Shown piece after piece: positions 1-27,863 of a DNA stretch of 27,863 nt (positions are counted from its first letter, which is position 1; each line of letters starts with the position of its first letter). A program made the position numbers and the translations under genes. A model generated the notes under the pieces. The model was not told the DNA's origin. It was given only the letters and a program-made list of their open reading frames with translations, and did not search any database. Origin of the DNA: a virus. Location of the stretch: positions 1 through 27,863 of the IMG/VR virus record IMGVR_UViG_3300043775_001169; one strand, written 5' to 3'.

Positions 1-126
1 CAACCAACTCACACCACTTGCAGGTGTATTCCCTACATCCCCATTATCTTTAACTTGTAACGCTGTTGTCCCCGCACTATTCTGCACCAAAAGCGATGTA
101 GTGGCGGATGTTGAGCCACTGCCTTT
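1..126. repeat. Terminal overlap, copy 1 (matches 27669-27794)
   Basis: Bases 1-126 are identical to 27669-27794 and diverge at base 127. The match lies in the same reading frame of the tail-fibre gene at both ends. The simplest reading is that the window closes on itself here, giving a long-form circle of 27,668 bp. Confidence 0.95.
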
Positions 127-993
127 GATATGAACTAATGTACTTGCGGCGGGGTTTGAATAATCTTTGTTAATTGCCACACCACCCGTAGTAGTAACTA
201 AACGCATATTGGTATTTTGAATTACAGTACCACTTACAAAAGTATAATTTGCAATATCAACCGCCCCATCATCGGTAACTTGAAATAATTTACCCCCCGT
301 ACTATTCTGCACCAAAAGTGCTGTTGTGGCGGATGTTACGCCACTGCCTTTAAAATGACCTCTTGCACTTGGCGCATTTGTTCCAACGCCCAACCTATTA
401 TTGGTATCATCCCAAAACAAGTTAGCGGCATCACTGGCAAACGCACTTCCATTGCTGAACTGAATTGCACCCGATACACCGCTTGGGTTTGCTGAAATAC
501 TAATATCACCGCTTCCCAAAAGCGATGTGCTATTGACGGTCTTAATATTTGTTGCGCTAACTAGTGTAGCCTGCTTAGCATCTAACTGCGTTTGAATTGC
601 CGAAGTTACCCCGTCCAAATATCCGAACTCCGTAGAACTTACAACGCCCGTGCCAATGTTGGCCGCGTTTATTCCTGTTGGCATATCCGCAGCGTCCAAT
701 ATATCGCCCGCAGTTACTAGCCCTTTCGCGTCGTATGTGATCTTGGTTTTTGTAGCTGCAACGATTGCAGTGTTTCCTGTTACCTTAGCGTTTAAAGCAT
801 CCTGCTGCGCGGTGCTCACTGGCTTGTTAGCGTCGCTGGTATTGTTGACGTTGTCCAACGCTAAAGCAGTCTTTAAAGCAGTCGGACTAATTTTTTTAGT
901 AGTATTCGCTGACGTGTCTACAATCGGCAGGACGTCTAGGCTCGTGTCTACCGTTACAATCGCGGTTAACTCGCTAATTTTTTGATTAGGCAT
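1..993 (-). CDS. Tail fibre / receptor-binding protein, N-terminal part (runs off left edge)
   Basis: An open frame with no stop runs from an ATG at 993 to base 1, giving 331 residues. The N-terminus MPNQKISEL followed by alternating short Ser/Thr/Asn-rich beta-type segments is typical of long trimeric tail fibres. Residues about 190-331 contain two copies of a module beginning KGSG(V/S)TSATT(A/S)LLVQNS, starting 75 residues apart. The frame continues in phase with the C-terminal part at the right edge of the window, which supports wrap-around. The expected role is host adsorption at the tail tip. It lies directly downstream of the tail-tip protein gene, with a 42-bp gap holding a TAnnTTTG box. 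The fibre assignment rests on position, composition and repeats; no receptor-binding domain can be named. Confidence 0.8.
   Translation of the reverse strand, partial: MPNQKISELTAIVTVDTSLDVLPIVDTSANTTKKISPTALKTALALDNVNNTSDANKPVSTAQQDALNAKVTGNTAIVAATKTKITYDAKGLVTAGDILDAADMPTGINAANIGTGVVSSTEFGYLDGVTSAIQTQLDAKQATLVSATNIKTVNSTSLLGSGDISISANPSGVSGAIQFSNGSAFASDAANLFWDDTNNRLGVGTNAPSARGHFKGSGVTSATTALLVQNSTGGKLFQVTDDGAVDIANYTFVSGTVIQNTNMRLVTTTGGVAINKDYSNPAASTLVHIKGSGSTSATTSLLVQNSAGTTALQVKDNGDVGNTPASGVSWL
340..420. repeat. Second terminal overlap, copy 1 (matches 27783-27863)
   Basis: Bases 340-420 are identical to the last 81 bases of the window (27783-27863), at an offset 225 bp different from the 1-126 match. 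The switch between the two matches falls in a 12-bp word (GCCACTGCCTTT, encoding KGSG) present at 115-126, 340-351 and 27783-27794. The right end therefore represents a version lacking one 225-bp (75-codon) module. Confidence 0.93.
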
Positions 994-17876: not shown

Positions 17877-18033
17877 CTTTTAAAGTTATTTCAATCTGAT
17901 TTATTAGTGTTTGGAACTCTTCTAAGGTGGTTCCGTTGACCTTGGAAATTTTAAACAGGGGTACAAACTTAGTTTTTTTTCTCTTTGAAAAATAATAAAT
18001 ACCCCTGTTAGGGATTATGGCGTAGTTACTCAA
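17818..18033 (-). CDS. Small protein in the replication operon, unknown (TTG start)
   Basis: A protein of 71 residues whose start codon is TTG, overlapping the upstream stop as TTGA; no ATG occurs in the frame. It begins MSNYAIIPNRGIYYFSKRKK, is Lys-rich, and includes a helix (TTLEEFQTLINQIEITLK) before a polar tail. The tail overlaps the next gene by 59 bp. No known family. Confidence 0.5.
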   Translation of the reverse strand: MSNYAIIPNRGIYYFSKRKKTKFVPLFKISKVNGTTLEEFQTLINQIEITLKDDTTRKSKQQTDPRPNILG

Positions 18034-18251
18034 AGCAGTTTCTCGTTACCATCACCCAATTTGATAAAGCCCGAGTCCTTGGTGCTTCCAGTGGCGCGGA
18101 TAAAATCTATTTCAATCTTTGCGCTGTTGATAATTACTTGCCCGACGTCTGCCATTGCCTTAGCTGTTGCTATGTCGATGTCGCCATCCTTTAGGCGTTC
18201 TAGTGTTTCAAAGAGGTGATCCCTTAAGTCGTTAATTTTGTTGCGTGCCAT
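18030..18251 (-). CDS. Small helical phage protein, conserved type
   Basis: A protein of 73 residues: MARNKINDLRDHLFETLERL, then DIDIATAKAMADVGQVIINS, then AKIEIDFIRATG. The A-K-A-x-A-D-V-G-Q-V-I-x-x-A-K pattern is familiar from small proteins of replication regions in phages of several host groups, generally without assigned function. It overlaps the HNH gene upstream by 20 bp. It may be a replication or recombination accessory factor, but that is a guess from position only. Confidence 0.7.
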   Translation of the reverse strand: MARNKINDLRDHLFETLERLKDGDIDIATAKAMADVGQVIINSAKIEIDFIRATGSTKDSGFIKLGDGNEKLL

Positions 18252-18834
18252 GTTGATTAATTTTTCTAGTTATTTGTTTTTTTATGTGAATTACTGCCCG
18301 CAACTCAGCGGGTAAATTTTGGATGTGATTGCGTCGCATGTGCTCGGAGCGGTCTATAAGCTCGAGGTTTTCAATGCAAACGTTTAGCCTATTGCGGTCC
18401 TTAAATACGACAAACAGCCCTTTTGGTATTTCGCCGTGATGCTGACGCCAAAGAAGCCAATGCACAAACTCAAATCCTTTGTCGGTTTTCTCTACCATGT
18501 AGCCATCCCTGGTACTTTGGTATCCGATCGGCTTGGTATTATGTGGCAAACCGCCAGCTTTAAACTGAGTCTCTACGCCTCCCATTTGCAAGCCTTTTAG
18601 CCCCTTATTCCAACTCTTATGCCCTTTTTTAAACTGGGTGGCTATGTTGGTTTCCTTAATTCGACCGCCATAGTTTTGCAAATAGTTCTCAGATTTAGAC
18701 AAATCCAAACGCTTTGCTTTGTTGTAAATCTGCTTCACTGTGCAGTTAAATTGCTTGGCTAGATCGGCTGTAATTGTATCGGCGTAAATCTTACGCAATA
18801 CCCGGGTTTCTTTTGGTGTCCAGTATTTTCTCAT
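18232..18834 (-). CDS. HNH endonuclease with N-terminal HTH
   Basis: A protein of 200 residues. Residues 1-45 (WTPKETRVLRKIYADTITAD, then KQFNCTVKQIYNKAKRL) look like an HTH/SANT-type DNA-binding domain. Residues 65-95 carry GHKSWNKGLKGLQMGG, a polar linker seen in HNH proteins of Bacteroidota phages. Residues 115-165 form an HNH_3-like nuclease with H125 in VHWLLWRQHHGEIPKG and the ENLELIDR box (N156). It overlaps the helicase upstream by 4 bp and is in-line with the operon, so it could be a phage function or a domesticated free-standing homing nuclease. Confidence 0.88.
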   Translation of the reverse strand: MRKYWTPKETRVLRKIYADTITADLAKQFNCTVKQIYNKAKRLDLSKSENYLQNYGGRIKETNIATQFKKGHKSWNKGLKGLQMGGVETQFKAGGLPHNTKPIGYQSTRDGYMVEKTDKGFEFVHWLLWRQHHGEIPKGLFVVFKDRNRLNVCIENLELIDRSEHMRRNHIQNLPAELRAVIHIKKQITRKINQHGTQQN

Positions 18835-20249
18835 CCTGCAACCTCCCCCAATCTTATTGTAAAATTCTTAACTGGAGCGCCCTCTGCAAAATCCCTTTCT
18901 TTGCGCCATCGGTAGCCATCGGTATAACCTTTGGACCGCCAAAAGCGTTGCAACTCTGAGTAATTGGCGAAGTATAGCACACGCTCAATAAAGGACTGTT
19001 TATACTTTTTAACCCGTTGCAAATCGTATAGATCGGCGGGATTTTTAGCAATGTCGTAAATTTTACGGCCCTCAAGTTTTGCGGATTTTTGGTAATTTAA
19101 CAACTTTAAAGTTGCAATTACGTCCTCTTCAGTCTTTTTTGGCTCTGGAAACTCCGCCCCACAGTTAGCACAAATCCGCGCTGAAGCGTAAGCTACAAAA
19201 CCGCACGCTGGGCAGTCCTTAACAGGTGCAACGCCTTCGCCTTTTTTCTTAGGATTCTCGAACAGGTGCGCCCAATCGCGAGGCTCCTGCCAGAAACCTA
19301 AGCGCGTTACATTCTCGCCAAAGTCTAAGATTGTAAAGGCCGATTTGGTTTGAGTCCTGCGCGAGGCTCTGCCCACCATTTGCAACCATAGTGCAACCGA
19401 CTTAGTAGCTCGATTAATTACTACCACCTCAATATCTGGGCAGTCGAAGCCAGTCGTCGCTATTCCGCAGTTAACTAGGATGCCGTTTTTTGATGCGCTA
19501 AATTCCGCAATTATCCGCTCGCGTTCCTGTGGGCTTTGCTTTGAGTGCACGCCCCAAACTCTGCCCGGCCCTAATTGCTTTATAAATTCTATGGCGGTAT
19601 TGATCGTCGCGCTAATATTAACACAAAATACAATAGCCTTTTTATCGGCCCATTTTTGGCAAAATTCATGCACTACTCCCTCATAAACTTTAGGCTTGTT
19701 AAAAGCATCGTCTAGGCTTTGCTCGGTATATTCTCCGCGGGCGGTTTGAAGCTTAGAAGTGTCGACCGGGTGCATTGCGTAAGTTTTTGGAACCGCAAGC
19801 CACCCCTGCCCAATCAATGACTCAATCCCAACAGGGCAAACTATAGCGTTATACTGGTCCTTTAGTGGCGGATTGGATACAGGCGTTGCAGTGGCTCCAA
19901 TTACAAAGCCTTGGAATCCCTTAATAACCTTTCGGAAGTTTCCAATATGCGCCTCATCTACTACTAGCAAATCGTACTGGCTCAAATCCAACCCCCGCTT
20001 AATTGCGTTATTCAGCGTTTCCACCATCAAAATATCGCAACTATTTAGCCGCCCCGCTTGACTCAATAACTCCCTGCGATGGGTTAAAATTGCAACTCGC
20101 TTGCCCTTTGCCGCTGCCCTGTGCGCTATGTCTGAAAATATAACAGTCTTGCCCGCTCCAGTAGGTAGGCAAAGGATCACCCGCTTACTGCCGGAAGCAA
20201 ACGCCCTCTGCACTTGGGCCACGCTATCCACTTGGTAATCCCTAAGCAC
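18831..20249 (-). CDS. DEAD/DEAH-box superfamily 2 helicase with zinc ribbon
   Basis: The GTG start at 20249 is preceded by GGAGG at good spacing, giving 472 residues. Motifs are: Q/I region LRDYQVDSV, Walker A CLPTGAGKT (27-35), DEAH (98-101, LLVVDEAHIGN), GATATPVS (118-125), TTGFDCPDIEVVVINRAT (265-282), and QMVGRASRR (290-298). A four-cysteine zinc ribbon follows: C346-x2-C349 and C360-x2-C363. This resembles phage RadD/UvsW-like helicases that remodel branched DNA. The ribosome-binding site and start codon are part of a 17-bp sequence repeated 372 bp upstream, on the other side of the GIY-YIG gene. Confidence 0.93.
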   Translation of the reverse strand: MLRDYQVDSVAQVQRAFASGSKRVILCLPTGAGKTVIFSDIAHRAAAKGKRVAILTHRRELLSQAGRLNSCDILMVETLNNAIKRGLDLSQYDLLVVDEAHIGNFRKVIKGFQGFVIGATATPVSNPPLKDQYNAIVCPVGIESLIGQGWLAVPKTYAMHPVDTSKLQTARGEYTEQSLDDAFNKPKVYEGVVHEFCQKWADKKAIVFCVNISATINTAIEFIKQLGPGRVWGVHSKQSPQERERIIAEFSASKNGILVNCGIATTGFDCPDIEVVVINRATKSVALWLQMVGRASRRTQTKSAFTILDFGENVTRLGFWQEPRDWAHLFENPKKKGEGVAPVKDCPACGFVAYASARICANCGAEFPEPKKTEEDVIATLKLLNYQKSAKLEGRKIYDIAKNPADLYDLQRVKKYKQSFIERVLYFANYSELQRFWRSKGYTDGYRWRKERDFAEGAPVKNFTIRLGEVAG

Positions 20250-20260
20250 TTTGCACCTCC
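20244..20260 (-). repeat. 17-bp direct repeat, copy at helicase start
   Basis: The minus strand reads GGAGGTGCAAAGTGCTT, identical to 20616-20632. This copy supplies the Shine-Dalgarno-like GGAGG and the GTG start of the helicase gene. Confidence 0.95.
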
Positions 20261-20294
20261 CAGCTAATTAATTGAACTAATATTTTATTTACCA

Positions 20295-20621
20295 TTATTT
20301 TCCAATTCTATTAAATTTTGGTTGGTGATATTTTATCCAAGCCCGCTCTTGATTTAAACTTTCCTCATAAGTATTGTATTCGATTAAACCAAATCTATCA
20401 AATTCAAAACTCTGTTTGTGGCACACAATTCTTTCATATAGACTTTTAGTGTGACCAATGTAAATCTCTTTATCTTCATACATAAGAAAGTAAACAAAAA
20501 ACCTGCCTCGATATGCACTCCAGTGTATATTAAAATCACCTATTTTATGATAAGTTTTCTTGCTTATTACATCAACCAACTGACTTAAACTCATTTTTCT
20601 TACATTTGGATTCTCAAGCAC
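20295..20621 (-). CDS. GIY-YIG endonuclease (free-standing, probable homing type)
   Basis: A protein of 108 residues, start GTG at 20621 inside the upstream 17-bp repeat. The GIY-YIG layout is visible: FVYFLMYEDKEIYIGHT (about 42-58), SLYERIVCHKQSF with the conserved Arg, then EYNTYEESLNQERAWIKYHQ with the catalytic-type Glu, and PKFNRIGK. The stretch is more AT-rich than the flanking genes to the eye. It is inserted exactly between the DnaA-like gene and the helicase, with the 17-bp repeat on both sides, which keeps both neighbours intact. Such genes are usually selfish homing nucleases. It might alternatively serve a phage DNA function. Confidence 0.88.
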   Translation of the reverse strand: MLENPNVRKMSLSQLVDVISKKTYHKIGDFNIHWSAYRGRFFVYFLMYEDKEIYIGHTKSLYERIVCHKQSFEFDRFGLIEYNTYEESLNQERAWIKYHQPKFNRIGK

Positions 20622-21087
20622 TTTGCACCTCCATTCCTAAGCCTTCGACCTGTTCAGTAATACAAAGCAACTCTTTAGCGGTGTTGTAAATGCGCCTTTC
20701 TTCGCGCCTGTATTCCAAGCTATTGGAAAACTGCTTAAAGCTATTAATTGCTGTGCTGTGATCGCGGTGAAGCCTGCGCCCTATTTCGGCATAATGCAGG
20801 GCGTAATCGTGGCGAAGTAGGTATACAACCAAATGGCGGGCCGTCATAATATCGCCGCGCCTCATTTTGCTGAGCACCTCCGCGGGCGTTACGTTGCAAA
20901 CCATACAGGCCACCTGAAGCACTTTCTCAAATTGCCCCATTTTGGATGTGAACTTAATTTTAGGAGCAAGTATTTCCTTTTTTAGCCCTGCTATTTCCTT
21001 CTCATACTTTGCAACGGTGTAAGCGAGTTTGTTCTCAAGCTCCCGAACTCTTTTCGATTTCCTCGAGTATTCCAGTATATAATCCAT
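20614..21087 (-). CDS. Stand-alone DnaA domain IV (DNA-binding) protein
   Basis: The ATG at 21087 gives 157 residues; a TTG one codon upstream is less likely. Residues 8-42 form a coiled coil (KRVRELENKLAYTVAKYEKE). Residues 52-125 match the C-terminal DNA-binding domain of DnaA: NVTPAEVLSKMRRGDIMTAR, HLVVYLLRHDYALHYAEIGR, and RDHSTAINSFKQF, with the DHST signature at 109-112. No AAA+ ATPase part is present. In DnaA this domain reads the 9-bp DnaA box. Here it may mark the phage origin, recruit the phage primase-helicase or interfere with host initiation. The gene lies in the replication operon. Confidence 0.87.
   Translation of the reverse strand: MDYILEYSRKSKRVRELENKLAYTVAKYEKEIAGLKKEILAPKIKFTSKMGQFEKVLQVACMVCNVTPAEVLSKMRRGDIMTARHLVVYLLRHDYALHYAEIGRRLHRDHSTAINSFKQFSNSLEYRREERRIYNTAKELLCITEQVEGLGMEVQSA
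20616..20632 (-). repeat. 17-bp direct repeat, copy at DnaA-like 3' end
   Basis: The minus strand reads GGAGGTGCAAAGTGCTT, identical to 20244-20260. It encodes the last residues of the DnaA-like protein (E-V-Q-S-A before the stop) and also gives the GIY-YIG gene its GGAGG and GTG start. Confidence 0.95.
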
Positions 21088-21259
21088 CAAATTTTGTAGT
21101 TAGTGTGGTTAAAATTTTATCCCTGCTGCGGGTATCGTTCTCGTGAAACCGTATGCGCTCCAAGATTTCCAAGGAAATTAATGACTGTCTGAGTCGTTCC
21201 TGTTCCTCTGGGCTCAGTAATGCCCAGACGTAAGCTGTAATGCTTTTTTCTTTTTCCAT
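21035..21259 (-). CDS. Small charged helical protein, unknown
   Basis: A protein of 74 residues starting MEKEKSITAYVWALLSPEEQ, strongly helical and charged. It overlaps the putative HTH gene upstream by 143 bp in the +1 frame and the DnaA-like gene downstream by 53 bp. Composition favours this as a real coding frame over the tail of the HTH gene in the overlap. It could be translated from its own ATG or as a fused product by frameshift. No family recognised. Confidence 0.55.
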   Translation of the reverse strand: MEKEKSITAYVWALLSPEEQERLRQSLISLEILERIRFHENDTRSRDKILTTLTTKFDGLYTGILEEIEKSSGA

Positions 21260-21377
21260 AAATATAGTGTGCTGTTTTGTCTGTAATGTTTAATCGCTCA
21301 CCAATGGAGCGCCAAGTAAGGCCGAAGTCATCCCGTAAGATTGCAACGGCCCAGATTAAATTGTAGTTAGTCTGCAT
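21117..21377 (-). CDS. Putative small HTH protein
   Basis: A protein of 86 residues. The first 45 contain a plausible helix-turn-helix (VAILRDDFGLTWRSIGERLN, then ITDKTAHYIYGKRKK) ending in a basic patch. From about residue 46 the sequence (SLRLGITEPRGTGTTQ and beyond) is Gly/Thr/Arg-rich and overlaps the better-looking 74-residue frame, so the natural C-terminus is doubtful. The ATG at 21377 overlaps the upstream stop by 11 bp. The HTH call is by pattern only. Confidence 0.5.
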   Translation of the reverse strand: MQTNYNLIWAVAILRDDFGLTWRSIGERLNITDKTAHYIYGKRKKHYSLRLGITEPRGTGTTQTVINFLGNLGAHTVSRERYPQQG

Positions 21378-21579
21378 TTAAATGTTTTTGTTTTTCAAAT
21401 TCATCATACAAACGTTCGTATTTATCATTAGCGTTTTGCCATTCGATAGTATCTGTAAAATGATATATACCATTGGCAAAAAGTCTATTTTTTATGTAAT
21501 CTACATAATCCGAGGCGTGCCTAACTTTGGCATATAACAAATCTATGTCAACTGCCGTTTGTTGTTTATTGTTTGTCAT
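21367..21579 (-). CDS. Small protein, unknown (early operon)
   Basis: A protein of 70 residues starting MTNNKQQTAVDIDLLYAKVR. Tyr/Asp/Asn-rich and helical (DYVDYIKNRLFANGIYHF, then NDKYERLYDEFEKQK), acidic overall. It overlaps its neighbours by 13 and 11 bp. No motif or family seen. Confidence 0.6.
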   Translation of the reverse strand: MTNNKQQTAVDIDLLYAKVRHASDYVDYIKNRLFANGIYHFTDTIEWQNANDKYERLYDEFEKQKHLNAD

Positions 21580-21943
21580 TGCTCACCTCCTTTAACGCTT
21601 TTTTCTTTGCCCTCTCCTTAGCCTTTCTAAGCCTTGCCTGTTCTCTCCGTTCAACTTGCCTCGCCTCCAGTGCAAAAAGTTTCTGTAACGCGCTCGCTAG
21701 GTCATTCTCAGCAACTAAGCAACGGCGCTGCAATTCCTCGCCCCTGCCTTCCCAAGTCTTTGCTTTGTCAATAGCCCCCATAACCTCGGCGCGATAATCT
21801 AGCAGTTGGGTCTCGTACTTAAATACAAGATTGGATTTTTTCTTTAATTCTCTGCTCAATCCTCGCACCTGAGCGCGGGAAGCATTTAACGCCAATGCAA
21901 GCGCAACGGCTGCAATAGTGGCTAGTGTGGTGTAAAGTATCAT
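21566..21943 (-). CDS. Membrane-anchored coiled-coil protein
   Basis: A protein of 125 residues. Residues 3-20 (LYTTLATIAAVALALALN) form one membrane segment or uncleaved signal anchor. The rest is a long charged coiled coil ending in a very basic stretch (REQARLRKAKERAKKKALKE). The ATG overlaps the upstream stop as ATGA. Its early position next to another single-TM protein suggests a pair acting at the membrane, for example replication anchoring or superinfection effects. This is not supported further by sequence. Confidence 0.7.
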   Translation of the reverse strand: MILYTTLATIAAVALALALNASRAQVRGLSRELKKKSNLVFKYETQLLDYRAEVMGAIDKAKTWEGRGEELQRRCLVAENDLASALQKLFALEARQVERREQARLRKAKERAKKKALKEVSNDKQ

Positions 21944-22507: not shown

Positions 22508-23281
22508 ATGACTTACCACACTAATACAAGCCGTATCTCGAAGAGCGGCCTAGACCTAATTAACCGCGCTCCAGCTCATTACTATGAGCGCTACTTAAAC
22601 CCAAACGCCCCACCGCAAAAAGAAACGCCCGCCTTAGTTATTGGGTCGGCAGTCCATTGCGCGGTATTGGAACCAGAAGAGTTTGGCAAACGCTACGCCG
22701 TTGGGCCACGCGTTGACCGCCGAACTTCCAAGGGGAAGGCCGAATGGGAAGAGTTCCTAACCCAGTCCGCAGGGCTTACCTGCCTCGACTCCGAAACCGC
22801 AACCCTGTGCGAGCGTATAATGGAAGCCGTCCGTAAATTTCCTGCTGCTAAATACCTACTAAAAGAAGGGCAGGCAGAGAAAGTAATTGAGTGGACCGAT
22901 GAAGCTATAGAGGTAGATTGCAAAGCACGCCCCGACTGGCTTACTCCAGATAATATAATTGTTGATCTAAAAACTACCGAGGATGCAAGCCCGCGCGGGT
23001 TCGCCCAAAGCGTAAGAAAATACAGGTACGATGTACAGGCCGCGTTTTATTCTGACGGCCTCGAGCAGTCAACAGGCAAAGAGTGTGAAGGCTTCTTTTT
23101 TATAGCCGTTGAAAAATCCCCGCCGTTCCTGTGCGCTGTTTATTTTTTAGGCGCCGACGACTTGCTAGAAGCTAGGCAGAAATACCAAAAAAATCTGCTC
23201 ACTTATCGTATGTGCAAAGAGTCTGGCATTTGGTCGGGCTATTCTGAAATCGTTACTAAACTTGAAATATGGAAACCATGA
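22508..23281 (+). CDS. RecE-like exonuclease (PD-(D/E)XK, exodeoxyribonuclease VIII type)
   Basis: A protein of 257 residues. Early SKSGLDLINRAPAHYYERYL and GSAVHCAVLEPEEF (H50) match the start of RecE C-terminal-like nucleases. The catalytic core is CKARPDWL (D143), IIVDLKTTEDASP (D153, K155) and YRYDVQAAFYSDG (Q177, Y181). It is expected to degrade one strand of double-stranded DNA ends 5' to 3', leaving 3' tails for RecT. It is the first gene of the only rightward operon. The ATG at 22508 follows a TAAATTTG box by seven bases. Confidence 0.92.
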   Translation: MTYHTNTSRISKSGLDLINRAPAHYYERYLNPNAPPQKETPALVIGSAVHCAVLEPEEFGKRYAVGPRVDRRTSKGKAEWEEFLTQSAGLTCLDSETATLCERIMEAVRKFPAAKYLLKEGQAEKVIEWTDEAIEVDCKARPDWLTPDNIIVDLKTTEDASPRGFAQSVRKYRYDVQAAFYSDGLEQSTGKECEGFFFIAVEKSPPFLCAVYFLGADDLLEARQKYQKNLLTYRMCKESGIWSGYSEIVTKLEIWKP

Positions 23282-23487
23282 CACCAAAAGACAAAGCAAA
23301 AGAACTGGTAGATAAGTTTGACGGAGTTGGATTGCAAATGCGAAACGAAGCCATTGCTTGCGCATTTATTACAGTCGATGAAATAGTAAAAGAAATACAA
23401 TGCAATGCTTTTGACTTTGGGGCTGAGGTTCCAGTAAGCGTTTACACATATTGGAAAAATGTAAAAGAAGAAATAAAAAAATTATGA
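23278..23487 (+). CDS. Small protein between RecE-like and RecT genes
   Basis: The ATG at 23278 overlaps the upstream stop as ATGA and gives 69 residues (MTPKDKAKELVDKFDGVGLQ). An ATG at 23269 would add three residues. The pattern AKELVDKF, then NEAIACAFITVDEIVKEI and YWKNVKEEIKKL, is one I associate with small proteins common in Bacteroidota phages, always without assigned function. Placement inside a recET operon suggests a recombination accessory role. Confidence 0.75.
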   Translation: MTPKDKAKELVDKFDGVGLQMRNEAIACAFITVDEIVKEIQCNAFDFGAEVPVSVYTYWKNVKEEIKKL

Positions 23488-24101
23488 CCACAGAAATAAA
23501 CACCACCGAACTAACCACAACCGAGCCAGTAAACAACGGCCCAATCTTCGCCCCTGCTCAGTTTGAACATGCACAAAGGATCGCCAAGGTCCTAAGCTCT
23601 AGCGACCTTGTACCAACCCAATACAAAAACAATGTAGCAAATACTTTGGTAGCCCTAGAAATGGCAAACAGGATGGGAGCCAGTCCGCTTATGGTGATGC
23701 AAAACTTGCACATCATTCATGGCCGCCCATCTTGGGGCTCCAGTTTTATTATTGCCTCGCTAAACAGTTGCGGCCGTTTCACAACCCTGCGCTTTGTAGG
23801 CGACGCTAACAAGTGCAAAGCCGTAGCAACTGACAAAGCCACGGGCGAGGTACTCGAAGGCCCAACAGTAAGCCTAGAAATGGCAAAGGCTGAGGGTTGG
23901 CTAGACAAAGCAGGGAGTAAATGGAAAACTATGCCAGAACTTATGCTAAAGTATCGCGCCGCTGCTTTCTTTGGCAGGCTCTACGCCCCCGAGGTATTAA
24001 TGGGTATGCAAACGAGCGAGGAAGTTATAGACATTACGCCTATCCAACCTGCTGCAGTCGACGCAATCAACGAAAAGATTAAAGCTAATCCAAAAGGTTA
24101 A
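23484..24101 (+). CDS. recT: RecT-family single-strand annealing protein
   Basis: The ATG at 23484 overlaps the upstream stop as ATGA, giving 205 residues (MTTEINTTEL). The core matches short phage RecT proteins: QFEHAQRIAKVLSSSDLVP, LVALEMANRMGASPLMVMQN, LHIIHGRPSWGSSFIIASLN, then KWKTMPELMLKYRAAAFFGR and APEVLMGMQTSEEV. It coats single-stranded DNA and anneals complementary strands, working with the adjacent RecE-like nuclease. It ends head-on with the lysin gene (17-bp overlap of coding ends). Confidence 0.92.
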   Translation: MTTEINTTELTTTEPVNNGPIFAPAQFEHAQRIAKVLSSSDLVPTQYKNNVANTLVALEMANRMGASPLMVMQNLHIIHGRPSWGSSFIIASLNSCGRFTTLRFVGDANKCKAVATDKATGEVLEGPTVSLEMAKAEGWLDKAGSKWKTMPELMLKYRAAAFFGRLYAPEVLMGMQTSEEVIDITPIQPAAVDAINEKIKANPKG

Positions 24102-25865: not shown

Positions 25866-26146
25866 AGCTTATTCATTGTATTCATTATCCGTATTTCAGT
25901 AATCGCGGCAGCCAGTGCACTGTCTGACTTCTTTAATGCGTAGCTGAGCCTGTCTATCTTAATATCTAGAGCGTCAATTTTCTGATTACTCTTTTCAATT
26001 TGTTCTTTATACCCCGACCTAAGGTCAACATACAAATAAGACACAGCCAACAGCATACAAAAAGCCACGGCAGCAACAGGGTTTTTGCGAAATTCTGAAA
26101 AATTAACAGGAAGGGGATTAGCGGATATTTTCTTAGTCGCATTCAT
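25862..26146 (-). CDS. Single-TM coiled-coil protein
   Basis: A protein of 94 residues: a short cytoplasmic start (MNATKKISANPLPVNFSEFR), one membrane segment (AAVAFCMLLAVSYLYV, about 24-39), and a coiled coil (EQIEKSNQKIDALDIKIDRL). The start overlaps the GIY-YIG gene by 14 bp. Topology resembles inner-membrane lysis or spanin proteins. Its first residues resemble the N-terminal extension of the upstream GIY-YIG frame. Confidence 0.65.
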   Translation of the reverse strand: MNATKKISANPLPVNFSEFRKNPVAAVAFCMLLAVSYLYVDLRSGYKEQIEKSNQKIDALDIKIDRLSYALKKSDSALAAAITEIRIMNTMNKL

Positions 26147-26855
26147 TTGCTATATAAATTAAAGTTGTATTATTTTTCTTTTGACCATTCAAACGATTGG
26201 TAATTGTACTATAAGCAATTCCGAGTTCTTTGGCCGCCTCTTTGACTGAACCCCACACTCTATTTGTTTTTGTACACATGACTTTTTTTGCCAAAGGATT
26301 AGCACTCCCAAACTTCCCCCAATTTGGGTTTCTTTCTCCAACCATCAGACCTTTGTGTCCTTCGCTGATATTTTTTCTTGCTTGGTCACTCATCTTTTTG
26401 CCACGCATTGGATGATTTGCAATTAGCCATTGACGAGTTTTTTCAATTCCTACGAGTGGCATTTTTCTTCCAGTCATATATTCACGCCTTTTTTGTTTGA
26501 ACTCTTCAGACATCTTAATGCCCTTAAGCCGAATACTTTGTTTTTCCCTTACTTCATCCGTGACTATACGCCCCGGATTCCCTTCACCGCCATCAGTTAA
26601 ATTGCACAATGTACCCTCACCCTTATCACTTCTACCATATAATTTAATAAATTCAATTTCTTTTTCTTTAGCCTCATCTAATGAAATATCCATCAAAATA
26701 ATTTGAACTTTATAGTCAGTTTTTGCCACAATGTTAAACCACTTTTGATTCCTACGATGTTTATTGTATGCTCTGATAAATTTTTCATCGCTTCCAATAC
26801 CAATATAGAATGGCACATTTTTATCAATTCTAATATGTCGATATAGGTAAGCCAT
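26133..26855 (-). CDS. GIY-YIG homing endonuclease with NUMOD repeats
   Basis: The ATG at 26855 gives 240 residues; a frame-open ATG at 26906 adds 17 residues unlike the family. The nuclease part has AYLYRHIRIDKNVPFYIGIG, EKFIRAYNKHRRNQKWF and a Glu helix (SLDEAKEKEIEFIKLYG). It is followed by NUMOD3-like repeats (MSEEFKQKRREYMTGRKMP and SEGHKGLMVGERNPNWGKFG) and a C-terminal IENR/NUMOD1-type HTH (VWGSVKEAAKELGIAYSTIT). This is the SegE-like plan of free-standing homing nucleases. It looks more AT-rich than its neighbours and interrupts the run from fibre to lysis genes. Confidence 0.92.
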   Translation of the reverse strand: MAYLYRHIRIDKNVPFYIGIGSDEKFIRAYNKHRRNQKWFNIVAKTDYKVQIILMDISLDEAKEKEIEFIKLYGRSDKGEGTLCNLTDGGEGNPGRIVTDEVREKQSIRLKGIKMSEEFKQKRREYMTGRKMPLVGIEKTRQWLIANHPMRGKKMSDQARKNISEGHKGLMVGERNPNWGKFGSANPLAKKVMCTKTNRVWGSVKEAAKELGIAYSTITNRLNGQKKNNTTLIYIANECD

Positions 26856-26913
26856 TATTTTACAGGTAGCGCATTGGGTTTTACTTTCGGTGCCGTCATT
26901 GCTCAAAAAAAAA

Positions 26914-27275: not shown

Positions 27276-27863
27276 TTAAAGTGATGTTATTGTTTCCCAC
27301 GCTGTGCCGTTGTGGACTGAAAGTTTACCTAATGTAGTGTCAAATACAAGCAACCCTGCTAATGGTGTAGAAATTGCATTCTTTTGGGTGGTTGTTACTC
27401 TAGGGAATAAAACTCCTTGTGTTGTGCTTCTTATTTCTAAATTAGCACAAATATTGTAACTTGTACTATACGAGCCAATTAACCATTGTCCTGTTGTACT
27501 AATTTGTCCCCTAGCAGAGTTATTCGTTAAAAAACTAAAGGCATGATTTGTTGTTGTGCCTACTGCCGCATTACCACTTGCCCCCGCATTAAGCCTTGTA
27601 TTGCTACTTCCTGACCCTGCTACGTCAATAATGCCACCCAAACTTAGTGAAAGCCCTACATTGTTAAGCAACCAACTCACACCACTTGCAGGTGTATTCC
27701 CTACATCCCCATTATCTTTAACTTGTAACGCTGTTGTCCCCGCACTATTCTGCACCAAAAGCGATGTAGTGGCGGATGTTGAGCCACTGCCTTTAAAATG
27801 ACCTCTTGCACTTGGCGCATTTGTTCCAACGCCCAACCTATTATTGGTATCATCCCAAAACAA
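27276..27863 (-). CDS. Tail fibre, C-terminal part (runs in from right edge)
   Basis: The frame is open to the window edge with no true start and encodes 195 residues to the stop at 27276. It repeats the FWDDTNNRLGVGTNAPSARG and KGSGSTSATTSLLVQNS modules found at the left end, then adds unique sequence. It ends GVLFPRVTTTQKNAISTPLA, then GLLVFDTTLGKLSVHNGTAW. That end is the type seen at the C-termini of many Bacteroidota phage fibres. Joined in phase with 1-993, the full protein would be 461 residues (long form) or 386 (short form with one module). Confidence 0.8.
   Translation of the reverse strand: MFWDDTNNRLGVGTNAPSARGHFKGSGSTSATTSLLVQNSAGTTALQVKDNGDVGNTPASGVSWLLNNVGLSLSLGGIIDVAGSGSSNTRLNAGASGNAAVGTTTNHAFSFLTNNSARGQISTTGQWLIGSYSTSYNICANLEIRSTTQGVLFPRVTTTQKNAISTPLAGLLVFDTTLGKLSVHNGTAWETITSL
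27669..27863. repeat. Terminal overlap, right-end copies
   Basis: 27669-27794 equals 1-126 and 27783-27863 equals 340-420. The right end is thus a direct join of two segments that are 225 bp farther apart at the left end. Confidence 0.95.

Follow-up and report, generated by a model that had tools for sequence, protein, structure and literature searches.

In the 27,863-bp viral contig analysed here in full (the window), a small predicted GIY-YIG nuclease gene lies between a dnaA-like gene and a helicase gene, and sequence comparison indicates that the 355 bp holding it were gained in the window's lineage together with a 17-bp duplication. All features of the locus are on the minus strand. The upstream neighbour (20614..21090, 158 amino acids) encodes a protein resembling the C-terminal domain of DnaA (PF08299, E = 3.3e-14), and the downstream neighbour (18831..20249, 472 amino acids) encodes a superfamily 2 helicase (PF04851/PF00271, phrog_16). 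The 355 unique bases between the repeat copies (20261..20615) contain one substantial gene, that for the nuclease, and have a G+C content of 28.7% versus 44.1% for the window. An earlier note on this DNA had stated that the insert restored the ends of both neighbours, and this is what we found: the DnaA-like protein still ends in EVQSA before its stop codon, and the GTG start of the helicase is unchanged.

The 17-mer GGAGGTGCAAAGTGCTT is present on the minus strand in two identical copies, 372 bp apart. Copy 1 (20616..20632) forms the 3' end of the dnaA-like gene and now also provides a ribosome-binding site (RBS) and a GTG in the GIY-YIG frame, while copy 2 (20244..20260) comprises the Shine-Dalgarno sequence, spacer, GTG start and second codon of the helicase gene. 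Because the bases bordering the copies differ (AAT before and GAG after copy 1; CTG before and AGG after copy 2), the repeat is exactly 17 bp long. Even when up to three mismatches were tolerated, none of 100 shuffled sequences matched twice, and the repeat described on both sides of the nuclease gene is thus exact and beyond chance.

Using the helicase protein as query, 78 loci were retrieved. In close relatives (helicase identity 82-96%), the dnaA-like gene continues into the helicase gene via one copy of the repeat (...GGAATGGAGGTGCAAAGTGCTTAGGGATTACC...), and the insert is missing from all of them. The intact empty-site 20-mer GGAGGTGCAAAGTGCTTAGG is present once each in ten IMG/VR contigs, and variants with one- or two-base changes were seen in L006 and L008. 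Whole-contig alignments with eight relatives break at position 20260 and resume at 20616 with an exact 17-bp overlap. An outgroup at ~67% identity has neither the insert nor the 17-mer. The uninserted junctions that the earlier note had proposed to look for in related phages were therefore found, ten contigs having an unbroken junction with one 17-mer, and its reading of the locus as an insertion footprint stands. The empty sites in the relatives, together with the outgroup, indicate that the insertion is derived and was made in the window's lineage.

We also considered the reverse history, with the gene present in the ancestor and removed from the relatives by recombination between the direct repeats, which would allow a precise loss. 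Loss in the relatives was rejected on the outgroup evidence and is extremely improbable, since the gene is absent from all relatives examined and from the ~67% outgroup, which also lacks the 17-mer, and since the insert is AT-rich and nearest to another phage group. The insertion was seen in only one contig, and near relatives of the window may lie outside the searches, as would fit a chimera of metagenome assembly. Such an artefact is nevertheless very unlikely: the insertion is in frame and gene-precise on both sides, everything is on one coding strand, and assembly overlaps are usually longer than 17 bp.

The native nuclease gene most likely spans 20295..20594 (ATG start, 99 amino acids), because five homologues with 65-84% protein identity all start at an ATG corresponding to M10 of a longer, GTG-started open reading frame (ORF), at window position 20594. 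The frame can be extended to a GTG at 20621 (108 amino acids), and the nine residues that this start would add are not common to the homologues. It had been proposed that the insert captured the RBS and GTG of the duplicated sequence for its own start. An in-frame GTG does exist in the upstream copy, and the gene may borrow it together with the RBS; its use as the start is not established, however, as the conserved start is the downstream ATG behind an A-rich leader. This ATG is still present, and capture would not be needed.

The 108-amino-acid form matched Pfam PF01541 above the cut-off (E = 5.7e-6). An alignment of the six proteins revealed invariant residues Y35, Y45, G47, R55, E83 and N95, and from knowledge of the family we take the two Tyr and the Arg, Glu and Asn to be catalytic. 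An AlphaFold model had a mean pLDDT of 68 and was poor over the N-terminal ~20 residues; its nine best Foldseek matches in the PDB were all UvrC GIY-YIG domains (probability 1.00, E = 0.011-0.029). A PDB sequence search gave nothing useful, and a comparison with the phage collection gave weak Vibrio phage matches only. No separate DNA-binding domain was recognised, with Pfam reporting GIY-YIG alone and NCBIfam nothing. The insert contains no terminator-like site and four promoter-like sites on both strands together (shuffle mean 1.8, standard deviation 1.3). With its fold and catalytic residues, and as a free-standing gene present or absent among close relatives, the predicted enzyme shares these two features with free-standing GIY-YIG homing endonucleases. 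It also resembles a phage moron, as a gene of foreign composition added between conserved ones.

Homologues of the insert gene are also AT-rich (24-26% G+C within contigs of 35-40%), and the gene is 86-87% identical at the DNA level to those in L079 and L080. Most other genes common to the two phage groups are further apart, with MARNK at 72-85% identity over short matching parts and HNH at 73-77%, and the dnaA-like and helicase genes gave no BLASTN match to L079/L080 in the stretches compared. In this other Bacteroidota phage group, the gene resides directly upstream of a replication-initiation-like gene (MENIGQ..., assigned through phrog matches). The nuclease gene is present at this locus in L079, L080, L081, L088 and L089 and absent in L109, L110, L112-L115, L117-L119 and others. 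At the MENIGQ locus, whose flanking genes do not overlap, no 17-bp duplication was seen; any repeat there is imperfect and covers no more than ~8 bp surrounding the ATG. The insertion at this locus is older, and a duplication there could have been lost through divergence. Exact IMG/VR searches with both insert ends gave no match to a donor. There was no DNA match among plasmids, DNA of the helicase/dnaA region had none in the phage collection, and no relative was found in the genome collection.

In another phage group, a replication-initiation-like gene is preceded by a conserved structured element (L079:2908-3000, L109:1816-1911, L122:2400-2500 and relatives). Two hairpins make up this element, a small one and a terminator-like one with a T run behind it, and the 6-8-nt loop of the first is complementary to that of the second. 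Complementary loops were located here in 14 of 15 sequences, with many different loop sequences involved; for L115, the script gave another pairing, though GTAAGAG/CTCTTAC is visible. Rfam returned no match at the gathering score in L079-L081 and no credible match in L122.

In the empty allele, the C-terminus of the dnaA-like gene (GAG GTG CAA AGT GCT TAG) overlaps the GGAGG and GTG start of the helicase gene, in agreement with the earlier proposal that the gene without the insert would end E-V-Q-S-A-TAG across these signals. The interval that begins with the first G of GGAGG and closes with the dnaA-like stop codon measures 19 bp; its first 17, through the first base of the stop, are duplicated. 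The insert opens with GA and so completes a new stop (...E-V-Q-S-A-TGA). Had fewer bases been duplicated, the dnaA-like protein would be truncated or the helicase parted from its RBS; 17 bp is therefore the length that selection would keep, whatever process formed the duplication. This argument accounts for the retention of the duplication and not for its formation, and a staggered break would leave the same picture if this selection acted afterwards.

Taken as a whole, the locus is probably best explained by a recent transfer of the GIY-YIG gene into the dnaA-like/helicase overlap through illegitimate joining, with the length of the duplication set by selection. The parts of this account with direct support are the insertion, the empty site, the derived duplication, the foreign composition, the presence and absence of the gene at a second locus, and the undamaged flanking genes. 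The small mobile nuclease gene would have come from a relative of the L079/L080 phage group, in which it would have been followed by TAATGGTAAATAAAATATTAG, and moved recently into the junction. The donor fragment would have been joined illegitimately between two junction copies, by template switching or end joining in replicating multi-copy phage DNA. A break made by the nuclease itself was perhaps the trigger, and the window's exonuclease VIII-like gene (22508..23281, plus strand; phrog_412, E = 8.1e-83; PF12684) and its partner, a RecT-like single-strand annealing protein and candidate recombinase (23472..24101, plus strand; phrog_561, E = 4.2e-78), perhaps helped. Joins with other overlaps would form too, but only one that duplicates the stretch from the helicase Shine-Dalgarno sequence to the dnaA-like stop (19 bp) would keep both genes working. 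For Red-beta, efficient pairing was reported at 23-27 bp (PMC3945230); since 17 bp falls short of this, the repeat is a less probable site of homologous recombination, and illegitimate joining is favoured. At the tail of the insert (20242..20295, minus strand), a TAATGG stop/start overlap opens a short ORF, MVNKILVQLISWEVQSA followed by a stop, that ends on the old dnaA-like tail, and its first codons may tentatively be read as what is left of the gene that followed in the donor (in relatives, MENIGQ...). Counting against illegitimate transfer are the failure to find the donor and the restriction of the insertion to one contig.

An exact 17-bp duplication of pre-insertion sequence around an insert barely larger than one nuclease gene could also be the product of a transposon-like event, in which two nicks at a distance of 17 nt, made by the GIY-YIG protein or a partner, are followed by joining of the gene to the ends and by gap filling that creates a target-site duplication. 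We regard this as quite unlikely. Compared with a DNA transposon or insertion sequence, the locus has a target-site duplication with a known empty site, yet the insert ends carry no terminal inverted repeats, there is no transposase, and the nuclease is the sole substantial gene. GIY-YIG homing enzymes leave 2-nt 3' overhangs (PMC2988022). Moreover, the sequences past the GIY-YIG gene differ between the two loci, so that the element has no fixed ends, and the duplication length is not constant, as no 17-bp duplication was seen at the MENIGQ locus; a fixed 17-nt stagger is thereby disfavoured, subject to the greater age of the insertion there. It is improbable that the stand-alone gene of ~100 codons represents a minimal autonomous element that makes ~17-bp target duplications, is aimed at translation-initiation regions and gains a start signal with each copy.

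Repeats at start codons form a wider pattern, of which the window insertion is a clean example. We compiled gene-scale insertions from the window, from its relatives and from another 20 helicase loci. Among 50 distinct empty-site strings, which are not fully independent, 30 hold a gene's start codon, versus 4.4% of random intervals; for those with a flanking repeat of at least 7 bp, the figure is 18 of 23 (control, 6.2%). The repeats at such gene gains measure 7-36 bp, for example ATGAGCAAACCAA in L015, AGGAGGTGAGCAATGA in L022 and ATAGCACCACATTTATGA in L028. These numbers would be expected if genes were exchanged as start-anchored cassettes, with RecT-type annealing using translation-initiation regions as short homologies and the donor gene already lying behind a similar start (GGAGGTGC...). 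Small-gene arrays with one common RBS and N-terminus (MTNNKQQTA) and the encoded RecT-like protein point the same way. Still, we consider this origin unlikely for the window insertion, given that the 17-mer lies upstream of the gene in none of the five known loci and that 17 bp is short for efficient pairing. Selection for intact genes alone likewise moves boundaries to gene junctions and starts, and the pattern is therefore no proof of a start-directed recombination system.

Several other variable places were observed in the window. The hypervariable small-gene array (21367-21592, minus strand) lies between two conserved genes and recurs in G001, G002, G004, G007, G008, G011 and others; many of its genes share the RBS and N-terminus (ggaggtgagcaATG, MTNNKQQTA) and then diverge. 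Directly after the helicase gene (18030-18834, minus strand), contents differ in close relatives, each change falling at gene boundaries. This junction is empty in G005, G006 and G008, holds an HNH gene and a small gene in the window, G001 and G002, has a further gene besides these two in G004, and contains a DNA-methyltransferase-like gene (named by eye) in G007. A second GIY-YIG homing-endonuclease-like gene (26133-26906, minus strand; phrog_314, E = 5.5e-30) is preceded by a remnant (26855-26899, minus strand), a truncated start copy of the downstream gene (MTAPKVKPNALPVK, then a stop) that overlaps the nuclease ATG as TAATG; the downstream gene has its own complete start. A similar remnant is found in L137-L141 and was not seen in L142-L145, and G001 and G009 show the empty arrangement. 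Finally, both ends of the window (1-993 and 27276-27863, minus strand) carry very similar, repeat-rich tail-fibre-like coding sequence; the contig may thus begin and end inside a single repetitive gene and represent an almost complete genome.

That homing nucleases usually arrive without target duplications, as the earlier note held, is overstated in view of published precedents (PMC4019555, PMC2988022, PMC3029335). Fungal mitochondrial homing endonuclease genes at cox2, atp6 and rps3 duplicate or replace the end of the host gene and thereby preserve it (PMC4019555), there in C-terminal coding sequence and here at an RBS/stop overlap in a phage. Homing breaks in T4 can be repaired illegitimately through microhomology, and the free-standing seg genes of T4-like phages, with transposition-like insertions (PMC2988022), share with the window gene the fold, the catalytic residues and a patchy, free-standing placement between conserved genes; the window protein, a predicted nuclease, differs in its 99-amino-acid length, the lack of a recognisable DNA-binding domain and a new site with an exact 17-bp duplication. 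Gene 68 of mycobacteriophage Island3 was gained between ~60-bp direct repeats, a close relative having one copy (PMC3029335), but that repeat is at the genes' 3' end with the direction undecided, whereas the window repeat covers an RBS and start and its direction is clear. HNH insertions in Cluster J mycobacteriophages also lie precisely between genes with a known empty site (PMC3706429); one is precise and the other came with a 35-bp loss, and a duplication like that in the window was not described. The ultra-small MPME1/2 insertions, one near the 5' end of a phage gene (PMC3029335), have inverted repeats and 6 added bp, neither of which is found in the window insert. Start-associated sequences of Cluster K are likewise RBS-bearing repeats beside start codons (PMC3203893), yet form a dispersed motif and not an insertion-made duplication. 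No published phage case of an exactly duplicated RBS/stop overlap was found in a search that left out most subscription journals.

The routes by which free-standing nuclease genes reach new places are usually inferred from old, blurred insertions. The present case shows the empty site, both repeat copies and a related donor group together. It suggests a rule for compact genomes, namely, that insertion between overlapping genes requires duplication of the overlap, and the start-codon-centred repeats at many gene gains in these phages make testing on a large scale possible.
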